Shown here: one piece after another, positions 11,918 to 17,412 of the stretch | How the letters are laid out: each line of letters begins with the position of its first letter | Position numbering within the stretch: the stretch's first letter is position 1 | Source of the DNA: Croceibacterium salegens | GTDB lineage: Bacteria > Pseudomonadota > Alphaproteobacteria > Sphingomonadales > Sphingomonadaceae | Length of the DNA: 37,448 nt | Reading direction: 5' to 3' | Assembly (NCBI RefSeq): GCF_009827435.1 | Contig: NZ_WTYM01000040.1 | Span: 1 to 37,448, forward strand | Notes under the pieces: generated by a model | The model's database searches: none | Told to the model about the DNA's origin: nothing | The model's input: the letters and a program-made list of their open reading frames with translations, nothing else | Position numbers and translations under genes: made by a program

Positions 11918-12550
11918 TCACCGCGTAGCGACGGCCTGGCCGTTCCCGGCGGCAACGTCCTCCAGCTCTTCGAGGATGGCGCGATGGGCGGAGGGATCGT
12001 CGAGCGAACGGTCGGGAATGTTGCCATCCTCGATCATCGCGGCGAGCGCGGCGCGGGCACGCCCGACGCGGCTCTTGATCGTGCCGACGGCGCAGCCGCA
12101 GATGCTCGCGGCTTCCTCGTAGGAAAAGCCGCCCGCGCCGACCAGCAGCAGCGCCTCGCGCCGCTCGGGCGGCAACGTAAGCAGCGCGCGGTGCATGTCG
12201 CTGAGGTGGATCGGCTCTTCCTGTCCCGCCGGGGCGGTGAGGATGCGTTCGGCCACGCTCTCGTCGTATTCGCCGCGGAAGCGGTTGCGGCGCATATCGG
12301 TGAGGTAGGCGTTGCGCAGGATGACGAAGGTCCAGGCGCGCATCGAGGTGCCGGGTTCGAACCGGTCCTGCGCCGCCCAGGCCTTCAGCAGCGCTTCCTG
12401 CACCAGGTCGTCGGCCATGTCCGGCCGGCCGCACAGGCCGCGGGCGAAGGCGCGAAGATGGGGGATGACCTCGGTGAGCTCGCGCTTGAAGGCGCGCCTG
12501 TCTTCCGCGCTGCGCTTGGGCAGCTCACTGTCCGGGCGTTCGTCGGCCAT
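11918..12550 (-). CDS. ecfG: General stress response ECF sigma factor EcfG
   Basis: A 210-residue sigma factor with region 2 at about residues 25-90 ('RAFARGLCGRPDMADDLVQEALLKAW', then 'MRAWTFVILRNAYLTDMRR') and region 4 at about 120-175 ('LLTLPPERREALLLVGAGGFSYEEAASICGC', 'VGTIKSRVGRARAAL'). This is the EcfG (ECF15) pattern. In the family, EcfG is held by the anti-sigma NepR and directs RNA polymerase to GGAAC-N16/17-CGTT promoters. It lies directly after nepR with no gap (the nepR TGA is followed at once by ATG). A GAGG ribosome site sits inside the last nepR codons, so anti-sigma and sigma are made together. A matching promoter is upstream of nepR, indicating autoregulation. Confidence 0.95.
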   Translation of the reverse strand: MADERPDSELPKRSAEDRRAFKRELTEVIPHLRAFARGLCGRPDMADDLVQEALLKAWAAQDRFEPGTSMRAWTFVILRNAYLTDMRRNRFRGEYDESVAERILTAPAGQEEPIHLSDMHRALLTLPPERREALLLVGAGGFSYEEAASICGCAVGTIKSRVGRARAALAAMIEDGNIPDRSLDDPSAHRAILEELEDVAAGNGQAVATR

Positions 12551-12721
12551 TCAGTCCTCGGAATCCAGCTTCGACAGCAGGTCCCGGAACGCATCCGGAA
12601 GCGGTTCATCGACGACGGAATCGTAGAGCTTCTTGAGCCCCTTGGTCCAATCCGCCTCACCGTGCGCGCTCCTGCCCCCTTGGGGCGGCACCGCGCGCTT
12701 ATCCTTTGATCTACCAGCCAT
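12551..12721 (-). CDS. nepR: Anti-sigma factor NepR
   Basis: A small gene of 56 residues. After a basic, disordered N-terminus (about 23 residues) comes the NepR core 'WTKGLKKLYDSVVDEPLP' followed by 'DAFRDLLSKLD'. This matches the two-helix NepR family (typical core: L..(V/L)YD.VV.EP.P..F..LL..L). In the family, NepR binds EcfG and blocks it until phosphorylated PhyR takes NepR away. The ATG at 12721 gives the usual length; no strong ribosome site precedes it. The stop codon is immediately followed by the ecfG ATG. It is transcribed from the symmetric EcfG-type promoter about 100 bp upstream. Confidence 0.93.
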   Translation of the reverse strand: MAGRSKDKRAVPPQGGRSAHGEADWTKGLKKLYDSVVDEPLPDAFRDLLSKLDSED

Positions 12722-12816
12722 GAACTGCAAGTCTGCCCGTCCCTATCAATGGTTCACAAGCGTTTTCGATAACTGTTGCATGCTTGCATCGAAAATGAAT
12801 CTTGCGACGTTGGGGT

Positions 12817-12843
12817 GGAACGAAACCTCCGCCATAAGGTTCC
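12817..12843. promoter_or_regulatory. Symmetric bidirectional EcfG-type promoter (nepR-ecfG / histidine kinase)
   Basis: GGAAC at 12817-12821 and GTTCC at 12839-12843 with 17 bases between. On the minus strand this reads GGAAC-N16-CGTT (CGTT at 12822-12819), an exact match to the EcfG consensus, and puts the start site about 90 nt before nepR. On the plus strand it reads GGAAC-N16-GGTT, about 100 nt before the kinase GTG. Each -35 element is the reverse complement of the bases covering the opposite -10 (GTT plus CC). Confidence 0.82.
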
Positions 12844-12949
12844 CCGAAACATCCGCCGCGGATACGGTGGCAAGAGCGCGCGGTCGATTGGGGCGTCCGT
12901 GCGGCATGTCGGGATCGCAACAGGCCGGAACGGGCGGCCGGAGGATGAG

Positions 12950-14611
12950 GTGCAGAAGCTGGAACGGAAGCAACGGCGACCGCGCCACTGGCTGGTGCAG
13001 CATCCGCGCGGTATGCCCACCGCGATCTTCCTGCTCGTCATCGCCATCACCCTGCTCAGCGTCTTCGCCATCGAGCGCGGGCAGAGCCAGCGCGAAACAG
13101 CCCAACTGACCAGCCGCGCGGTCGAGGTCGCCTCGGCTCTCGAACGGCGCGCCAACGCCAACAGCGCCTACCTGCGATCGGGGGCGGCGCTGCTCGCCTC
13201 GCTCGACGAGGTTCCCGCCGCACGTTTCCGCCGCTTCGTCAGCGAGCTGCGGCTCGATGCCGACTATCGCGGTGCGGAGGGTATCGGCTGGGCACAGGTG
13301 GTCTACCCGAATGAATTGGATGCGTTCGATGACATGATGCGGCGCGAGGCGCCGGGAACGCCAAAACTGCATCCGGCGCTGGGTGCGTCGCAGCCGTTCG
13401 CGGTCCCGGTCACGTTCCTTCAGCCCGATACCGAGCGAAATCGCCGGGCGCTTGGTTATGACATGTATTCGGAGCCGGTTCGGCGGGCGGCGATGGACGA
13501 AGCGATGCGCACGGCGCGGCCGACCGCTTCGGGACGCGTGGTCCTGCAGCAGGAAGGGAGGGGCAACGCCGCCGGCTTCCTCATCTACATGCCGGTGTTC
13601 GTGACCACGCCCACGGGCCGCGAGATCAAGGGCTTCATCTACAGCCCGTTCAACGCCGACGATTTCCTCGCCTCGGCGCTCGAGCTCGAGGAGCCCGGCC
13701 TCTACGGCGTGCGCATCTACGACGGCGAGGTGACCCCTCAGAACCTGATCGCGACCTTCGACCGCGACAGCGATTTCGGCACCACCTACAGCGAGCCGAT
13801 CGTCATCGCCAACCACAACTGGACCCTGCAGCTCGATGCGCCCGGCAACCGGACGCTTACCGGCCTGTCGATGGTCACGCTGATCTTCGGCCTGCTCGTC
13901 GCCAGCCTGCTGATGCTGGTGGTCCGGATGCTGACGCGTCAGGCGCTCGAGAACGAGGCGGCGCTGCGCTGGTTCGAGGAACAGGCCTCGATCCGCAATT
14001 CGCTGACCCGCGAACTCAACCACCGGGTCAAGAACACGCTCGCCAACGTCCTGTCGATCATCGCCCTGACGCGGCGCCGGGCGGAGAACCTCGAGGATTT
14101 CGCCGAGGGCCTCGACGGGCGCATCCGCGCGCTTTCCGCGACCCACGACCTGCTAACCCAGTCCGACTGGGGGACGACACCTATCGGCGCGGTCGTCGAC
14201 GCCGAACTGGCGCCCTATCTGCAGGCCGGCGAGGAGCGGATCGAGGTGCGCGGACCGGAAATCCAGCTCGCCCCCAACGACGCCCTCTCGCTCGGGCTGG
14301 CGATCCACGAACTGGCGACCAACGCCGCCAAGTACGGCGCGCTGGGTAGCAGCGGGGGCAGCGTCAGGGTCTCGTGGCACAAGTCCTCGCACGACCGCGT
14401 GCGGCTGGAATGGACCGAGTGCGGCGGGCCGCCGGTGCAGGGCGAACCGGCGCGCGGTTTCGGCACCGACCTGATCGAGAAGATTGTCGCACACGAACTC
14501 GGCAACCCGGTCGAACTCACGTTCCGGCCCGAGGGCGTGCACTGCGTGATGACCATCCCGGTGCGCGAACCGACCCCGTTCGCCATGCGCGCCAGGCGCG
14601 GCGCCGACTGA
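12950..14611 (+). CDS. CHASE-domain HWE sensor histidine kinase of the general stress response
   Basis: A membrane sensor kinase of 553 residues. Membrane helix 1 is at about 22-41, then a periplasmic CHASE ligand-binding domain (about 60-285: 'GAEGIGWAQVV', 'RRALGYDMYSEPVRRAAMDEA', 'GFLIYMPVF'), membrane helix 2 at about 303-328, and an HWE-type kinase core. His358 in 'RELNHRVKNTLANVLSI' is the phospho-acceptor; the N-box is 'AIHELATNAAKYGALG' and the family W-x-E is in 'RLEWTECGGPP'. HWE/HisKA_2 kinases are the known phosphodonors for PhyR, and the position between nepR-ecfG and phyR supports that role. The open frame extends to 12776 but would cover the promoter; GTG at 12950 has a GGAGG site 5 bases before it. 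Signal sensed is unknown. Confidence 0.9.
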   Translation: MQKLERKQRRPRHWLVQHPRGMPTAIFLLVIAITLLSVFAIERGQSQRETAQLTSRAVEVASALERRANANSAYLRSGAALLASLDEVPAARFRRFVSELRLDADYRGAEGIGWAQVVYPNELDAFDDMMRREAPGTPKLHPALGASQPFAVPVTFLQPDTERNRRALGYDMYSEPVRRAAMDEAMRTARPTASGRVVLQQEGRGNAAGFLIYMPVFVTTPTGREIKGFIYSPFNADDFLASALELEEPGLYGVRIYDGEVTPQNLIATFDRDSDFGTTYSEPIVIANHNWTLQLDAPGNRTLTGLSMVTLIFGLLVASLLMLVVRMLTRQALENEAALRWFEEQASIRNSLTRELNHRVKNTLANVLSIIALTRRRAENLEDFAEGLDGRIRALSATHDLLTQSDWGTTPIGAVVDAELAPYLQAGEERIEVRGPEIQLAPNDALSLGLAIHELATNAAKYGALGSSGGSVRVSWHKSSHDRVRLEWTECGGPPVQGEPARGFGTDLIEKIVAHELGNPVELTFRPEGVHCVMTIPVREPTPFAMRARRGAD

Positions 14612-14675: not shown

Positions 14676-15473
14676 TCAGCCGAGCGGGCGGCCCGAGCCG
14701 AAGAACAGCGCCTGGCTGATCGCCGCGCGCACGGTCGATTCCTGGAAGGGCTTGGTGACGAGGTAGGTCGGCTCGGGGCGGTCGCCGGTGAGCAGCCGTT
14801 CGGGGTAGGCGGTGATGAAGATCACCGGGACATTGCCGATCGTCAGGATGTCGTCGACCGCGTCGAGGCCCGAGGAGCCGTCGGCGAGCTGGATGTCGGC
14901 GAGGACCAGCCCGGGCATCTCTTCGGCGACCACCTTCTGCGCCTGGGTGCGCGTGGCGGCGGTGCCGCAGATGTCGTGGCCGAGCGAGCGGACGAGGTCT
15001 TCGAGCTGCATCGAGATCAGCGGCTCGTCCTCGATGATGAGGACGTTGGTGGCGTTCTCGCGGTCGATCTCCTCGATCGCCTCGCGCACCAGCTGGTCGA
15101 TGTCGTCCTCGTCGATGTCCATGATCCGCGCCGCTTCGGCGGGCGAGAAATCCTCGACCGTGGTCAGCAGCAGCGCCTGGCGGTTGAGCGGGGTGATCTT
15201 CCTCAGCTGGTCCTGCGCCGCGAATTCGTGGAAGCCGCCCGAACCGTCGCCCTCTTCGGCGACTTCGAGGTAGGCGCTCGCCCACAACTTGTTGAACGCC
15301 GCATAGAGCGGGACCCGCCCGCCACGCAGCGAATCCGCCAGCGCCTTGTCGGCGAGGGCGGCTTCAAGGGTTGCCTTGACGAAGGCATCCCCGGTGTTCT
15401 GCGAGCCGGTGAGGGCACGGGCATAGCGGCGGAGGTACGGCAGGTGTGCGGCGACTTCGGCACCGATAGACAT
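14676..15473 (-). CDS. phyR: Response regulator/anti-anti-sigma factor PhyR
   Basis: A 265-residue PhyR. The N-terminal sigma-like domain (residues 1-135, 'HLPYLRRYARALTGSQ' to 'RIMDIDEDDIDQLVREAIEEI') mimics EcfG without DNA binding. The C-terminal receiver domain has the acidic pocket 'LIIEDEPLI', phospho-Asp193 ('LADIQLADG'), and Lys241 ('VTKPF'). It also carries 'IFITAYPE', the position of the FATGUY motif typical of general stress response receivers. When phosphorylated, the sigma-like domain binds NepR and frees EcfG. The ATG at 15473 follows a GGGAAGGGG site; 63 bases more are open upstream but overlap the promoter. The promoter is an exact GGAAC-N16-CGTT about 30 nt before the start, so EcfG feeds back on its own activator. 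Confidence 0.96.
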   Translation of the reverse strand: MSIGAEVAAHLPYLRRYARALTGSQNTGDAFVKATLEAALADKALADSLRGGRVPLYAAFNKLWASAYLEVAEEGDGSGGFHEFAAQDQLRKITPLNRQALLLTTVEDFSPAEAARIMDIDEDDIDQLVREAIEEIDRENATNVLIIEDEPLISMQLEDLVRSLGHDICGTAATRTQAQKVVAEEMPGLVLADIQLADGSSGLDAVDDILTIGNVPVIFITAYPERLLTGDRPEPTYLVTKPFQESTVRAAISQALFFGSGRPLG

Positions 15474-15507
15474 GTATTCCCCTTCCCTGGAGAGAACTGG
15501 CGGGCAT

Positions 15508-15534
15508 GGAACGGCCCAACGCCGTTCAGGTTCC
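15508..15534. promoter_or_regulatory. Symmetric bidirectional EcfG-type promoter (phyR / candidate sRNA)
   Basis: GGAAC at 15508-15512 and GTTCC at 15530-15534, 17 bases apart, the same 27-bp design as upstream of nepR. Minus strand: GGAAC-N16-CGTT (CGTT at 15513-15510), an exact match, with the start site about 30 nt before phyR. Plus strand: GGAAC-N16-GGTT (15529-15532), giving a start near 15540 in a stretch with no convincing protein gene. Confidence 0.82.
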
Positions 15535-15593
15535 ACGGCCGCTTGTAATAATCCGCCATACCGCCGCGGCCAGCCGGACTTATACCAGACCTA

Positions 15594-15610
15594 TCGTGCA
15601 GTGCAGCACA
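15594..15610. promoter_or_regulatory. PhaR-like TGCAGTGCA element
   Basis: CGTGCAGTGCAGCACA closely matches the two elements flanking the phasin promoter (shared core GTGCAGTGCAGCA with the distal one). It lies inside the candidate sRNA region, about 120 bp upstream of phyR on the other strand. If the phasin sites are PhaR operators, this would be a third. It could also be chance. Confidence 0.35.
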
Positions 15611-15735
15611 TGGCAAAAGGGGGGCGCAAAAAAAGTTGATCGGGACCGGGAACCGACTCCCGTTTTGCTCATTATCGCTATGTCACCGCCGAGACCCCCC
15701 CTCCCGTCCAAGCGGCTGGTGATACGATCCCGAAA

Positions 15736-15768
15736 GGCCCCCGTGCAGCGAGCACGGGGGCCTTTTTT
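15736..15768 (+). terminator. Strong intrinsic terminator (plus strand)
   Basis: A perfect 11-bp GC stem GGCCCCCGTGC (15736-15746) / GCACGGGGGCC (15752-15762) with a five-base loop is followed by six T (15763-15768). It is textbook Rho-independent in the plus direction. No plus-strand protein gene ends here, which is the main reason to suspect a non-coding transcript upstream. Confidence 0.88.
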
Positions 15769-15819
15769 CTGGTGTACTCGAGGCTTATGCGGTGACGCGC
15801 GGCGATGTAGTGGCGTGGG

Positions 15820-16380
15820 GAGTGGGAGTTTGGGGATTAATGCACCTGTCATCGTAATTCCACCGTAATTCAATAATGGTATCGATGATGGGCACTTTAT
15901 TGAGCAGATTTGGAAAGCGAAAATAGATGTTTCGGTATATTATCGACTCCATCCGACTTTCTAAATCACTAGTACATTTGAAGCGCAATCGGACAAATTA
16001 GGCTCACCATTATCTTGATTTAGTATTGAGTTCGAATTATGAAGAATTTTCCTTCATCAAAGCGTACGATGCCGCGGTTATGAATGCCGAAGAGCGTCTT
16101 GAGGATGCTCAAGAAAGATTTATCGAATGCAGATTGGAGAATGAGAACAAGAAGACGTCCGTAGATAGTCAATACATAGTTATCTTCTGCAAGTTATATG
16201 AATGCATTTACGCTTCTTGTGGAGAATGTAACAAATATATTTTGAGGGCGGAAAGTTTAAAGCCAAGTATATCTCTAAGACGATATTTGCAATTCTCGCC
16301 AATTGATCCAAGTTTTTTGAACAAGTAGAATTAGGAATTACGCGTATTACGGTGGCGCGTGCAATATCCCCTTAATTGAA
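15820..16380. other. AT-rich island inside the stress response locus
   Basis: Base composition changes sharply from GC-rich to AT-rich at about 15840 and back at about 16390. The stretch has many AT-only runs and stop codons in most frames, unlike everything else in the window. It holds one ORF of about 100 codons and is followed by a dead transposase gene. It looks like acquired DNA placed between phyR and the single-domain response regulator. I see no direct repeats or att sites at its edges. Confidence 0.6.
16026..16328 (+). CDS. Hypothetical protein in AT-rich island
   Basis: A 100-residue frame opening with TTG at 16026; the first in-frame ATG is at 16080 and would leave 82 residues. 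The product is mainly helical and charged at the N-terminus ('NAEERLEDAQERFIECRLENENKK', shown here only as composition) and has a cysteine cluster in the middle (C-x5-C-x4-C-x2-C in 'CKLYECIYASCGEC'). I do not recognise it. No ribosome binding site is visible before either start, and codon use is AT-rich, unlike the neighbours. It could be a real acquired gene or a chance frame in low-GC DNA, where long open frames are in fact less expected. Confidence 0.35.
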   Translation: MSSNYEEFSFIKAYDAAVMNAEERLEDAQERFIECRLENENKKTSVDSQYIVIFCKLYECIYASCGECNKYILRAESLKPSISLRRYLQFSPIDPSFLNK

Positions 16381-16391
16381 TTCCGCCAGTC

Positions 16392-16602
16392 GACCTATGG
16401 TCTCGCCATGTCGTCCTTCCCGGCATACCTCACCACGTCACCCAGCGTGGCAACCGGCGCGAGCGGACGTTCTTCGAGGATGGCGACTATGCGCTCTATC
16501 TCGACCTGCTGACCGACGCTGCCGAACAGGCCGGCGTGGAGATATGGGGTCCTATTGTCTGATGCCCAATCACGTCCATATCATCGCAACGCCGCGCGAG
16601 TT
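16392..16602 (+). pseudogene. Remnant of a RAYT/Y1 (IS200-like) transposase
   Basis: In one frame, 16404-16548 encodes 'RHVVLPGIPHHVTQRGN', then 'ERTFFEDGDYALYLDLL' and 'AAEQAGVEIWG', the classic start of REP-associated tyrosine transposases. The reading then continues in another frame as 'YCLMPNHVHIIATPRE', the family HxH metal motif region. The frames do not join (two extra or one missing base near 16549), there is no start codon in the first frame, and the sequence leaves the family just after 'IIATP' at about 16602. The catalytic tyrosine part is gone. A degraded insertion. Confidence 0.82.
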
Positions 16603-16965
16603 CCGGGGACACAATGTAAAATCGGAATCTCCGGGAACGACATGCGTTGCCGAGACACAACTCGTTCGCTTGTGACTCCAGCCGATAAACCGCTTCGCAG
16701 CGCGCACCCGACCCAACAGGATCGGCCATCCGAGAAATCGCTGTCCTACATGCGCCGCATCTGAGACAGTCCTGACGGCTCCTTCAAATTGTATCTCTCC
16801 GCCCGGCCTGATGATGCCGCCGCGACACCCGGTCGTCGGCAAGTCCGCCTCCGCCCGGGCTCCGCGAACCTCCGGCGCAAGCTTTCCATGTGCGCTATGG
16901 GCAATTTTAGCAAAGATAGGCCCTGACCCGCACCGGCATGATCCGGAGCAGTGTGCGGCGAAAGG
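16603..16965. other. Gene-free stretch downstream of transposase remnant
   Basis: No convincing gene on either strand. Just after the transposase break, GTTCCGGGGA (16600-16609) and CTCCGGGAAC (16629-16638) form an imperfect inverted repeat (8 of 10), possibly a decayed REP-like end. The rest is GC-rich with only short, non-family open frames. No clear terminator for the response regulator that ends at 16966 was seen. Confidence 0.5.
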
Positions 16966-17412
16966 TTATGCCTTGTTGCGCCGGAACCGTGCGAACAGGC
17001 CTTCCTTGCGGTCGCTGGCGAGGACCCGGGCGAGCTTGTCGGGGTCGTAGGGCTTTTCGAACACCAGCCCGAGTTCGGCGATGTGCGGGGGAATGTCCTC
17101 CGGCGAGCCGGTCGAGAAGATGATGCGGGTGTTCTTATCGCCGAGCACCGCGATGAGTTCGGCGAGCGCCCAGCCGTCGTCGCGGTCGCTGAGGTGGACG
17201 TCGAGCACGATCGCGTCGGGCACCGCCTTCTCGAGTTCGTGCATCGCCCGTTCGGTGCTCGGGCAGGTCACGACTTCGCGGGCCAGGCCTTCGGCGAGCA
17301 AGGCGTCCTCGATCGCCAGCGCCAGCAAGGCGTCATCTTCGACGATCAGCACACGGCTGAGCGGCGACCCCGCCTTGGGGCGTCGTCGTGGCTTCTCGAT
17401 CATCGAGCTCAT
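16966..17412 (-). CDS. Single-domain response regulator (SdrG-like) of the stress locus
   Basis: A 148-residue protein made of one receiver domain with a basic 17-residue N-terminal tail and a basic C-terminus. Acidic pocket 'VLIVEDDALL' (Asp26/Asp27), phospho-Asp71 ('VLDVHLSD'), Thr101 in 'IIFSTGSPEDI' and Lys120 ('FEKPY') are all present, so it should accept phosphate. No output domain. The 'FSTGS' segment resembles the FATGUY-type receivers used in sphingomonad general stress signalling (SdrG), where a single-domain regulator passes phosphate between kinases and PhyR. A GGAAC-N17-CGTT promoter lies 50 nt upstream, placing it in the EcfG regulon. Met4 is an alternative start. Role in the PhyR pathway is inference from motif, promoter and neighbourhood. 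Confidence 0.85.
   Translation of the reverse strand: MSSMIEKPRRRPKAGSPLSRVLIVEDDALLALAIEDALLAEGLAREVVTCPSTERAMHELEKAVPDAIVLDVHLSDRDDGWALAELIAVLGDKNTRIIFSTGSPEDIPPHIAELGLVFEKPYDPDKLARVLASDRKEGLFARFRRNKA

Follow-up and report, generated by a model that had tools for sequence, protein, structure and literature searches.

The DNA upstream of phyR in Croceibacterium salegens raises the question of whether the general stress response of this bacterium includes a small RNA (sRNA) and, if so, where that RNA begins and on what it would act. The locus lies in the window considered here, i.e., the whole stretch of 37,448 nucleotides of contig NZ_WTYM01000040.1, for which a first-pass annotation had described a stress-regulon sRNA divergent from phyR, about 230 nt long, driven by a GGAAC-N16-GGTT element at 15508-15532, and carrying a C-rich loop that a G-run near 15619 could mask. 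In our reading, positions 15681-15768 probably represent a small RNA that acts in trans as part of the general stress regulon, is controlled by EcfG, resembles GsrN, and belongs to a new sequence family. Comparison between related genomes shows the putative limits of this gene, its predicted promoter and structure, and its link to phyR, as well as the fact that no reading frame is preserved. If the RNA is made, the general stress response has a post-transcriptional arm that was overlooked in the group of bacteria that bears it, and the proposed gene limits, promoter, and loop make the RNA directly testable.

The phyR locus and the limits of the putative RNA gene

The genes that frame the question are arranged in the window as follows:

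11918-12550, minus strand: ecfG, an ECF sigma factor (Pfam Sigma70_r2 and Sigma70_r4_2)
12550-12720, minus strand: nepR, 56 aa, assigned by position, with similar frames in the listed named loci described below (42 match rows)
12776-14611, plus strand: open reading frame (ORF) of a CHASE-HWE kinase
14676-15473, minus strand: phyR, sigma-like domain and receiver (Pfam PhyR_sigma2, PhyR_sigma-like, and Response_reg)
15681-15768, plus strand: putative small RNA gene of about 88 nt, between phyR and a receiver-domain gene
16966-17412, minus strand: the receiver-domain (response-regulator) gene, beyond the terminator and convergent with the RNA

We take the sigma factor to be ecfG from its position beside nepR and phyR, and the 56-aa frame, which has no Pfam match, is presumably nepR, judging from its position and its resemblance to NepR. 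Two tRNAs are the sole Rfam families that reach their cut-off in the whole window. The RNA and the response-regulator gene are separated by about 1.2 kb (15780-16950), a distance of about 75 bp in the close relative L003; the three ORFs tested in this interval have no Pfam match, and a fragment within it reads MPNHVHIIATPRE, which we take to resemble a REP-type transposase.

To delimit the RNA, phyR was searched in 40 genomes of the same genus, family, and order, the window's own genome included, and the upstream DNA was compared for the 23 best matches. A majority block, TGTCACCGCCGAGA-C(n)-TCCCGTCCAAGCGGC-GGTGAYACGATCCCGAA followed by a terminator, occurs in 15 of these 23 regions; the eight loci that lack it are those whose PhyR is more distant, at 43-64% identity, and in the family genomes among them, seven in number, the covariance model likewise found no match. 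The 15 loci referred to below are the window and 14 relatives, chosen from the 23 by the 13-mer CCCTCCCGTCCAA. The elements that can be recognized in the window are:

15510-15534, minus strand: predicted phyR promoter, GGAAC-N16-CGTT, with GGAAC-N16-NGTT on the phyR strand in 14 of the 15 loci
15628-15639, plus strand: A/T-rich block upstream of the -35, UP-element-like in its base composition across loci
15649-15673, plus strand: predicted sRNA promoter, GGAAC (15649-15653), N16, CATT (15670-15673), recognized by conservation of its sequence alone
15681-15724, plus strand: 5' hairpin of 11 pairs with one bulged T, from sequence and fold
15692-15712, plus strand: C-rich loop of 21 nt, AGACCCCCCCTCCCGTCCAAG, a conserved sequence and the likely pairing region
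15725-15731, plus strand: predicted single-stranded linker CGATCCC, within the conserved ACGATCCCG, from the comparison of loci
15732-15768, plus strand: intrinsic terminator with an 11-bp GC core stem and six T, with compensatory changes

Model matches and the fold place the predicted start of the gene at or next to 15681, and TGTCA (TATCA in one of the 15 loci) stands 7-8 nt past the -10, counted at N16. The segment 15681-15768 folds at -46.6 kcal/mol against a shuffled mean of -27.4 kcal/mol (z -6.9), and none of 200 dinucleotide shuffles folded as well, whereas the longer RNA 15535-15768 gives a z of only -2.2, with 7 of 200 shuffles as good. Both hairpins of the first-pass annotation stand: the 11-bp hairpin at 15681-15724 with its 21-nt C-rich loop, to which the fold adds a 3-bp GAC/GUC helix inside the loop, and the perfect 11-bp GC stem, with arms at 15736-15746 and 15752-15762, a loop at 15747-15751, and six T at 15763-15768. 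The terminator at 15732-15768 escaped a simple terminator scan, perhaps because an A-T extension of the stem uses up the T run; a separate inverted-repeat scan did find it.

Regarding the unpaired parts, the loop sequence CCCCCTCCCGTCCAA is kept in 15 of 15 loci, which were themselves selected by exact CCCTCCCGTCCAA, and all ten loci that the model found in other genomes keep CCCCCCTCCCGTCCA. The linker sequence ACGATCCCG is present in all 15 loci and in eight of the ten model-found loci from other genomes; the 80 listed named loci introduced below are no test of it, because the pattern by which they were found required ACGATCCCG.

Predicted promoters between phyR and the RNA

The GGAAC-N16-GGTT motif from which the first-pass annotation had started its RNA does exist on the plus strand at 15508-15532, but it is rejected here as an sRNA promoter: its plus-strand reading recurs in only two of the 15 loci, the window and L003, against 14 of 15 for the reading on the phyR strand. 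On this comparison, the site is symmetric, and 15508-15532 is the putative phyR promoter of the minus strand read in reverse. A second symmetric site of this kind lies at 12817-12843; its minus strand reads GGAAC-N16-CGTT, likely the nepR-ecfG promoter, and its plus-strand reading faces the kinase gene, just as that of the 15508 site faces the RNA.

The element that the earlier reading had overlooked is the conserved promoter at 15649-15673. GGAAC-N16-CATT stands directly before the RNA block in 14 of the 15 loci, with GGAAC-N17-GGTT in the other, and all ten model-found loci in other genomes have GGAAC-N16, followed by CATT in eight and CGTT in two. An ECF promoter is expected at such a place, with its -10 shortly before the start of the RNA. 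A wider sample came from a pattern scan of named genomes, which returned at least 118 stretches, of which at least 80 were made into loci; in the 80 of these that were listed, seven of which share genomes with loci among the 15, GGAAC stands at the expected distance in every case, and GGAAC was not part of the scan pattern. The -10 among these 80 is N16-CATT in 61, N16-CGTT in 10, N16-CGTA in four, and N16-AATT in two, with N16-CTTT, N17-CGTT, and N17-GGTT once each. All 11 CGTT loci belong to Novosphingobium, among the 17 listed loci so titled, the other six of which have CATT (four) or AATT (two). The loci with CGTA are L085, L091, L115, and L130, two of them titled Qipengyuania. Moreover, in the 79 of the 80 listed loci with enough upstream DNA, the A+T fraction at -20 to -11 from the -35 is 0.88-0.89, compared with 0.36 over whole loci.

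These counts also bear on the first-pass model of the RNA as a transcript of about 230 nt that starts from 15508-15532, in which the G-run near 15619 pairs with the loop and masks it as a switch. Such a long RNA does fold so that the G-run pairs with the C-rich loop, and the motif at 15508 is real; nonetheless, its plus-strand reading is confined to the two loci named above, a run of five or more G is found in one of the 15 loci, the window itself (15619-15624), and a better conserved promoter stands directly before the conserved RNA. The G-run lies upstream of the sRNA promoter, outside the gene, and is not a conserved switch because it exists in that one locus alone, and we regard the long transcript as scarcely credible. 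What survives of the original proposal is thus a conserved, uncatalogued gene that diverges from phyR and combines a C-rich, anti-Shine-Dalgarno-like loop with a terminator and an EcfG-type promoter, while both the place of the promoter and the length had to be revised, the conserved gene being about 88 nt long.

Whether the sigma factor that reads this promoter is EcfG depends on how its -10 is interpreted. In Sphingopyxis granuli, as reported in the available portion of the study, GGAAC is constant among EcfG promoters and the -10 is variable; EcfG1 and EcfG2 transcribe in vitro from a -10 of CGTT, TGTT, CATT, or GGTT, and transcription by EcfG2 is the stronger (PMC7083833). The promoters tested there resemble those considered here in joining GGAAC to one of these -10 sequences, and differ in that they drive coding genes, with no such sRNA mentioned in the portion available (PMC7083833). 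An alternative is that another ECF sigma factor sharing the GGAAC -35 transcribes the RNA, a reading suggested by CATT, rather than CGTT, at N16 in 61 of the 80 listed named loci and likewise in the window. Since EcfG transcribes CATT promoters in vitro (PMC7083833), CATT is compatible with EcfG; in addition, other members of the family have GGTT or CGTT, the latter being the EcfG consensus itself, and the RNA keeps its position beside phyR in 80 of 80 genomes checked. We therefore hold transcription by another sigma factor to be improbable and read 15649-15673 as an EcfG-type promoter, as in the case of GsrN.

Conservation, coding potential, and distribution

The first-pass annotation had proposed a covariance search of syntenic phyR regions, together with minimum free energy and compensatory changes, as ways to check its RNA, and both checks support the gene: promoter, C-loop hairpin, and terminator are conserved in relatives, the folding energy is as given above, and compensatory changes occur in the terminator stem. 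Two covariance models were built, R1 from the 15 loci and R2 from 88 sequences. Over 84 distinct sequences in an alignment fitted to the model, 99.1% of helix cells are paired, and 155 cells are changed on both sides, compared with a shuffled mean of 31, all of them in the terminator stem, where 12 of 15 pairs show both-side changes in this model-fitted alignment. An unfitted MAFFT alignment of the 15 loci gives 7 of 25 pairs as compensatory, also in the terminator. The 5' stem, of which 10 pairs are modelled, is paired in 99.8% of cells over the 84 distinct sequences; because it is so conserved, it yields little compensatory change, with six of its ten pairs invariant and none changed on both sides against the commonest pair. 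Its pair 2 is GU in 66 sequences, GC in 11, and AU in seven.

A reading frame kept across the region had been named as something that would speak against an RNA, and none is found: in the 80 listed named loci, the length modulo 3 is 0, 1, or 2 in 36, 33, and 11 loci, respectively, and an NTG codon is absent in six. This loss of frame and the missing codons argue against a conserved peptide, as far as sequence comparison can tell. It remains very improbable that the element is a small protein gene, the leader of a downstream gene, or a mere terminator for the convergent response-regulator gene. An NTG codon before TCAC in 74 of the 80 listed loci would suit the first of these, against which stands the frame lost by indels, and the response-regulator gene beyond the terminator at 16966-17412 (minus strand) would suit the last, which leaves the 5' hairpin and its own promoter unexplained; as for a leader, the next Pfam-positive ORF to the right is convergent.

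In 397 genomes of the family, R1 matches 160 at E<=0.001, in 45 of 96 genera, with 152 strong matches (E of 4.3e-9 or better) and eight weak ones (1.1e-5 or worse). R2, applied to 296 genomes of the order, matches 116 at E<=0.01; the 91 at 1.3e-11 or better all belong to the same family, and the other 25 are weak (9.9e-6 or worse), five of them in other families. Among 385 genomes of the class, R2 gives a strong match in four, all of the family itself, and the matches in 20 genomes outside the family do not exceed 36.6 bits. The weak loci of the class, 23 in all, have neither GGAAC in the 60 nt upstream nor PhyR in the locus and look like ordinary terminators; under strict filters, no convincing relative was found outside the family in the sampled order (296) or class (385) genomes. 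The named carriers listed include Erythrobacter, Qipengyuania, Porphyrobacter, Croceibacterium, Croceicoccus, Pelagerythrobacter, Tsuneonella, Novosphingobium, and others. Judged from these sequences, the RNA gene looks real and nearly unchanged across dozens of related genera.

The link to phyR is equally constant. In all 80 genomes checked of the 152 with strong matches, PhyR shares a contig with the RNA and diverges from it, with a gap of 133-1706 bp that is under 400 bp in 61 and 966-1706 bp in 19. Of the 80 listed named loci, 69 show PhyR, always divergent, and in the other 11 just 123-905 bases are available on the phyR side. In two named loci with longer gaps, L082 and L072, the gap contains a gene that we take to be Crp/Fnr-like, oriented like the RNA.

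Known RNAs, possible action, and candidate targets

No Rfam family reaches its cut-off in the RNA region. Since none does, the RNA is best described as a new family in sequence, though of a functional kind already known, and membership in any Rfam family is rejected. The best score below cut-off, 26.1 bits, belongs to RefA9, an Enterococcus family, and covers the terminator only. CC1840 (RF01521), a two-hairpin sRNA of Caulobacter, is more similar in design, as its whole model aligns to 15678-15763 with the C-rich loop, and scores 26.0 bits against a gathering cut-off of 50; the CC1840 model matched none of the 385 class genomes, whereas the Caulobacter vibrioides control did match. The alphaproteobacterial sRNA ar14 (RF02344) is alike in having a CCUCCUCCC loop and a terminator hairpin and scores 19.7 bits, with a gathering cut-off of 58.8.

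The closest functional parallel is GsrN of Caulobacter, for which the accessible text of the original report describes a SigT-dependent RNA with a 5' C-rich loop that is affected by Hfq and acts on katG by pairing, and predicted homologues that are typically, though not universally, near ecfG, nepR, and phyR (PMC5869019). The RNA described here shares with GsrN the predicted character of a stress-regulon small RNA, the exposed 5' cytosine-rich loop, the terminator, and the location by the general stress response (GSR) locus, the last observed in 80 of 80 genomes checked. It differs regarding katG, the target of GsrN, for which there is no support here, and the likeness is one of design, position, and predicted promoter. 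By analogy, the RNA probably works like GsrN. According to the same accessible text, Erythrobacter litoralis has no apparent gsrN-like gene, and this example species belongs to the very group that bears the RNA (PMC5869019); several named Erythrobacter genomes among those listed carry it, a result for the genus rather than for E. litoralis itself. In the open-licence full texts of PMC, no paper on this RNA was found by title or start of abstract, a scope that mostly excludes the subscription literature, and the accessible part of the Sphingomonas melonis regulon paper (PMC6599016) makes no mention of small or non-coding RNA, GsrN, CATT, or intergenic.

In the mechanism that we propose, PhyR would release EcfG from NepR, and the EcfG polymerase, once active, would transcribe phyR leftward from 15534-15510 and, as suggested by the conservation of the promoter and the published in vitro result for the -10, the RNA rightward from 15649-15673. 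The product of about 88 nt would consist of a 5' hairpin showing the C-rich loop, a single-stranded linker, and a terminator hairpin with a U tail. Its loop would most likely pair, aided by Hfq, with G-rich stretches in several mRNAs, chiefly their ribosome-binding sites, and, by analogy with GsrN in Caulobacter, this pairing would change their translation or stability.

The RNA might instead act by binding protein, as a sponge for Hfq or another RNA-binding protein, rather than by pairing with mRNAs. The near-invariant stem, loop, and linker, which exceed the needs of a short seed, would fit such a sponge, as would the fact that no clear targets were found. On the other side, C-rich loops are known to serve for pairing with G-rich ribosome-binding sites, and GsrN works by pairing, according to the text available (PMC5869019), so that protein binding as the main mode of action seems to us quite unlikely.

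Regarding targets of the pairing that we prefer, katG is not supported: for the five possible starts in this genome, 84.5-89.5% of shuffles pair as well as or better than the katG leader, i.e., the predicted duplex is no better than those of shuffled leaders. Because the prediction does not support this pairing, a feature of GsrN, the RNA is not filed as GsrN. The 9-mer complement of the loop, GACGGGAGG, occurs before ATG at six sites in this genome, compared with two for the reversed pattern, and at 19 compared with five in five genomes of the genus, one of which has none; the reversed pattern is a weak control because it is not Shine-Dalgarno-like (SD-like). Two GACGGGAGG sites occur both in G003 and in the genome of the window. 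One precedes similar frames of 103 aa (L181 and L225) with ordinary duplex energies, 23% and 62.5% of shuffles being as good, and the other precedes unrelated short frames (L182 and L222). Exact 9-mer complement sites before ATG in the five genomes of the genus thus offer no convincing conserved target.

A more specific candidate is phyR itself, before whose start GGGAAGGG forms an unusual, locus-specific ribosome-binding site (e.g., 15478-15486, minus strand). The RNA may close a feedback circuit by adjusting the synthesis of PhyR through pairing of its loop with GGGAAGGGG, the ribosome-binding site of phyR. Among the listed loci, 28 of 69 that bear both sRNA and phyR have GGGAAGGG within 32 nt before the phyR start, and under the same mechanical start-calling, GGGAAGGG occurs in 11 and GGAAGGG in 19 of the 64 phyR leaders, compared with none of 287 leaders of other ORFs in either case. 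The median predicted duplex energy is -15.7 kcal/mol for the 69 phyR leaders and -9.1 kcal/mol for the 287 others, and five phyR leaders from genomes that lack the sRNA range from -5.5 to -12.3 kcal/mol. Scrambled loops paired as well in 2 of 100 cases with 61 SD-like phyR leaders, as against 84 of 100 for the SD-like controls. However, 41 of the 69 phyR leaders lack GGGAAGGG although the loop is unchanged, and a central A-C mismatch persists in the pairing of loop and GGGAAGGG where the motif is kept. Among SD-like leaders alone, the gap shrinks to -15.9 (phyR) compared with -13.05 (controls), and pairing as good as the phyR median is seen in 16 of 54 SD-like controls; furthermore, the phyR-leader loci are related rather than independent, and the control starts are mechanical. 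The better predicted pairing of the phyR leader is only suggestive, and feedback on phyR as the main role of the RNA strikes us as unlikely.

A broader version of this idea can be entertained as a speculative and rather unlikely one, in which a lineage-specific RNA, unrelated by descent to GsrN, would occupy the equivalent place next to phyR in Novosphingobium and the Erythrobacteraceae, and its loop and linker would act on the phyR leader, and perhaps on nepR, as a timer or brake of the stress response in addition to a role as global regulator. By eye and without a control, the nepR leaders of the Novosphingobium loci L062, L064, L073, and L101 carry GGAGGGGGAGG, complementary to the loop, and some other nepR leaders (e.g., L110 and L129) carry GGGATC, complementary to the linker.

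Finally, GsrN is stabilized by Hfq and processed to a stable 5' isoform. An hfq gene is present in this genome, where two Hfq domain matches (L237 and L238), separated by 51 nt on one strand and each within a 217-aa frame, are probably parts of one tandem Hfq protein.
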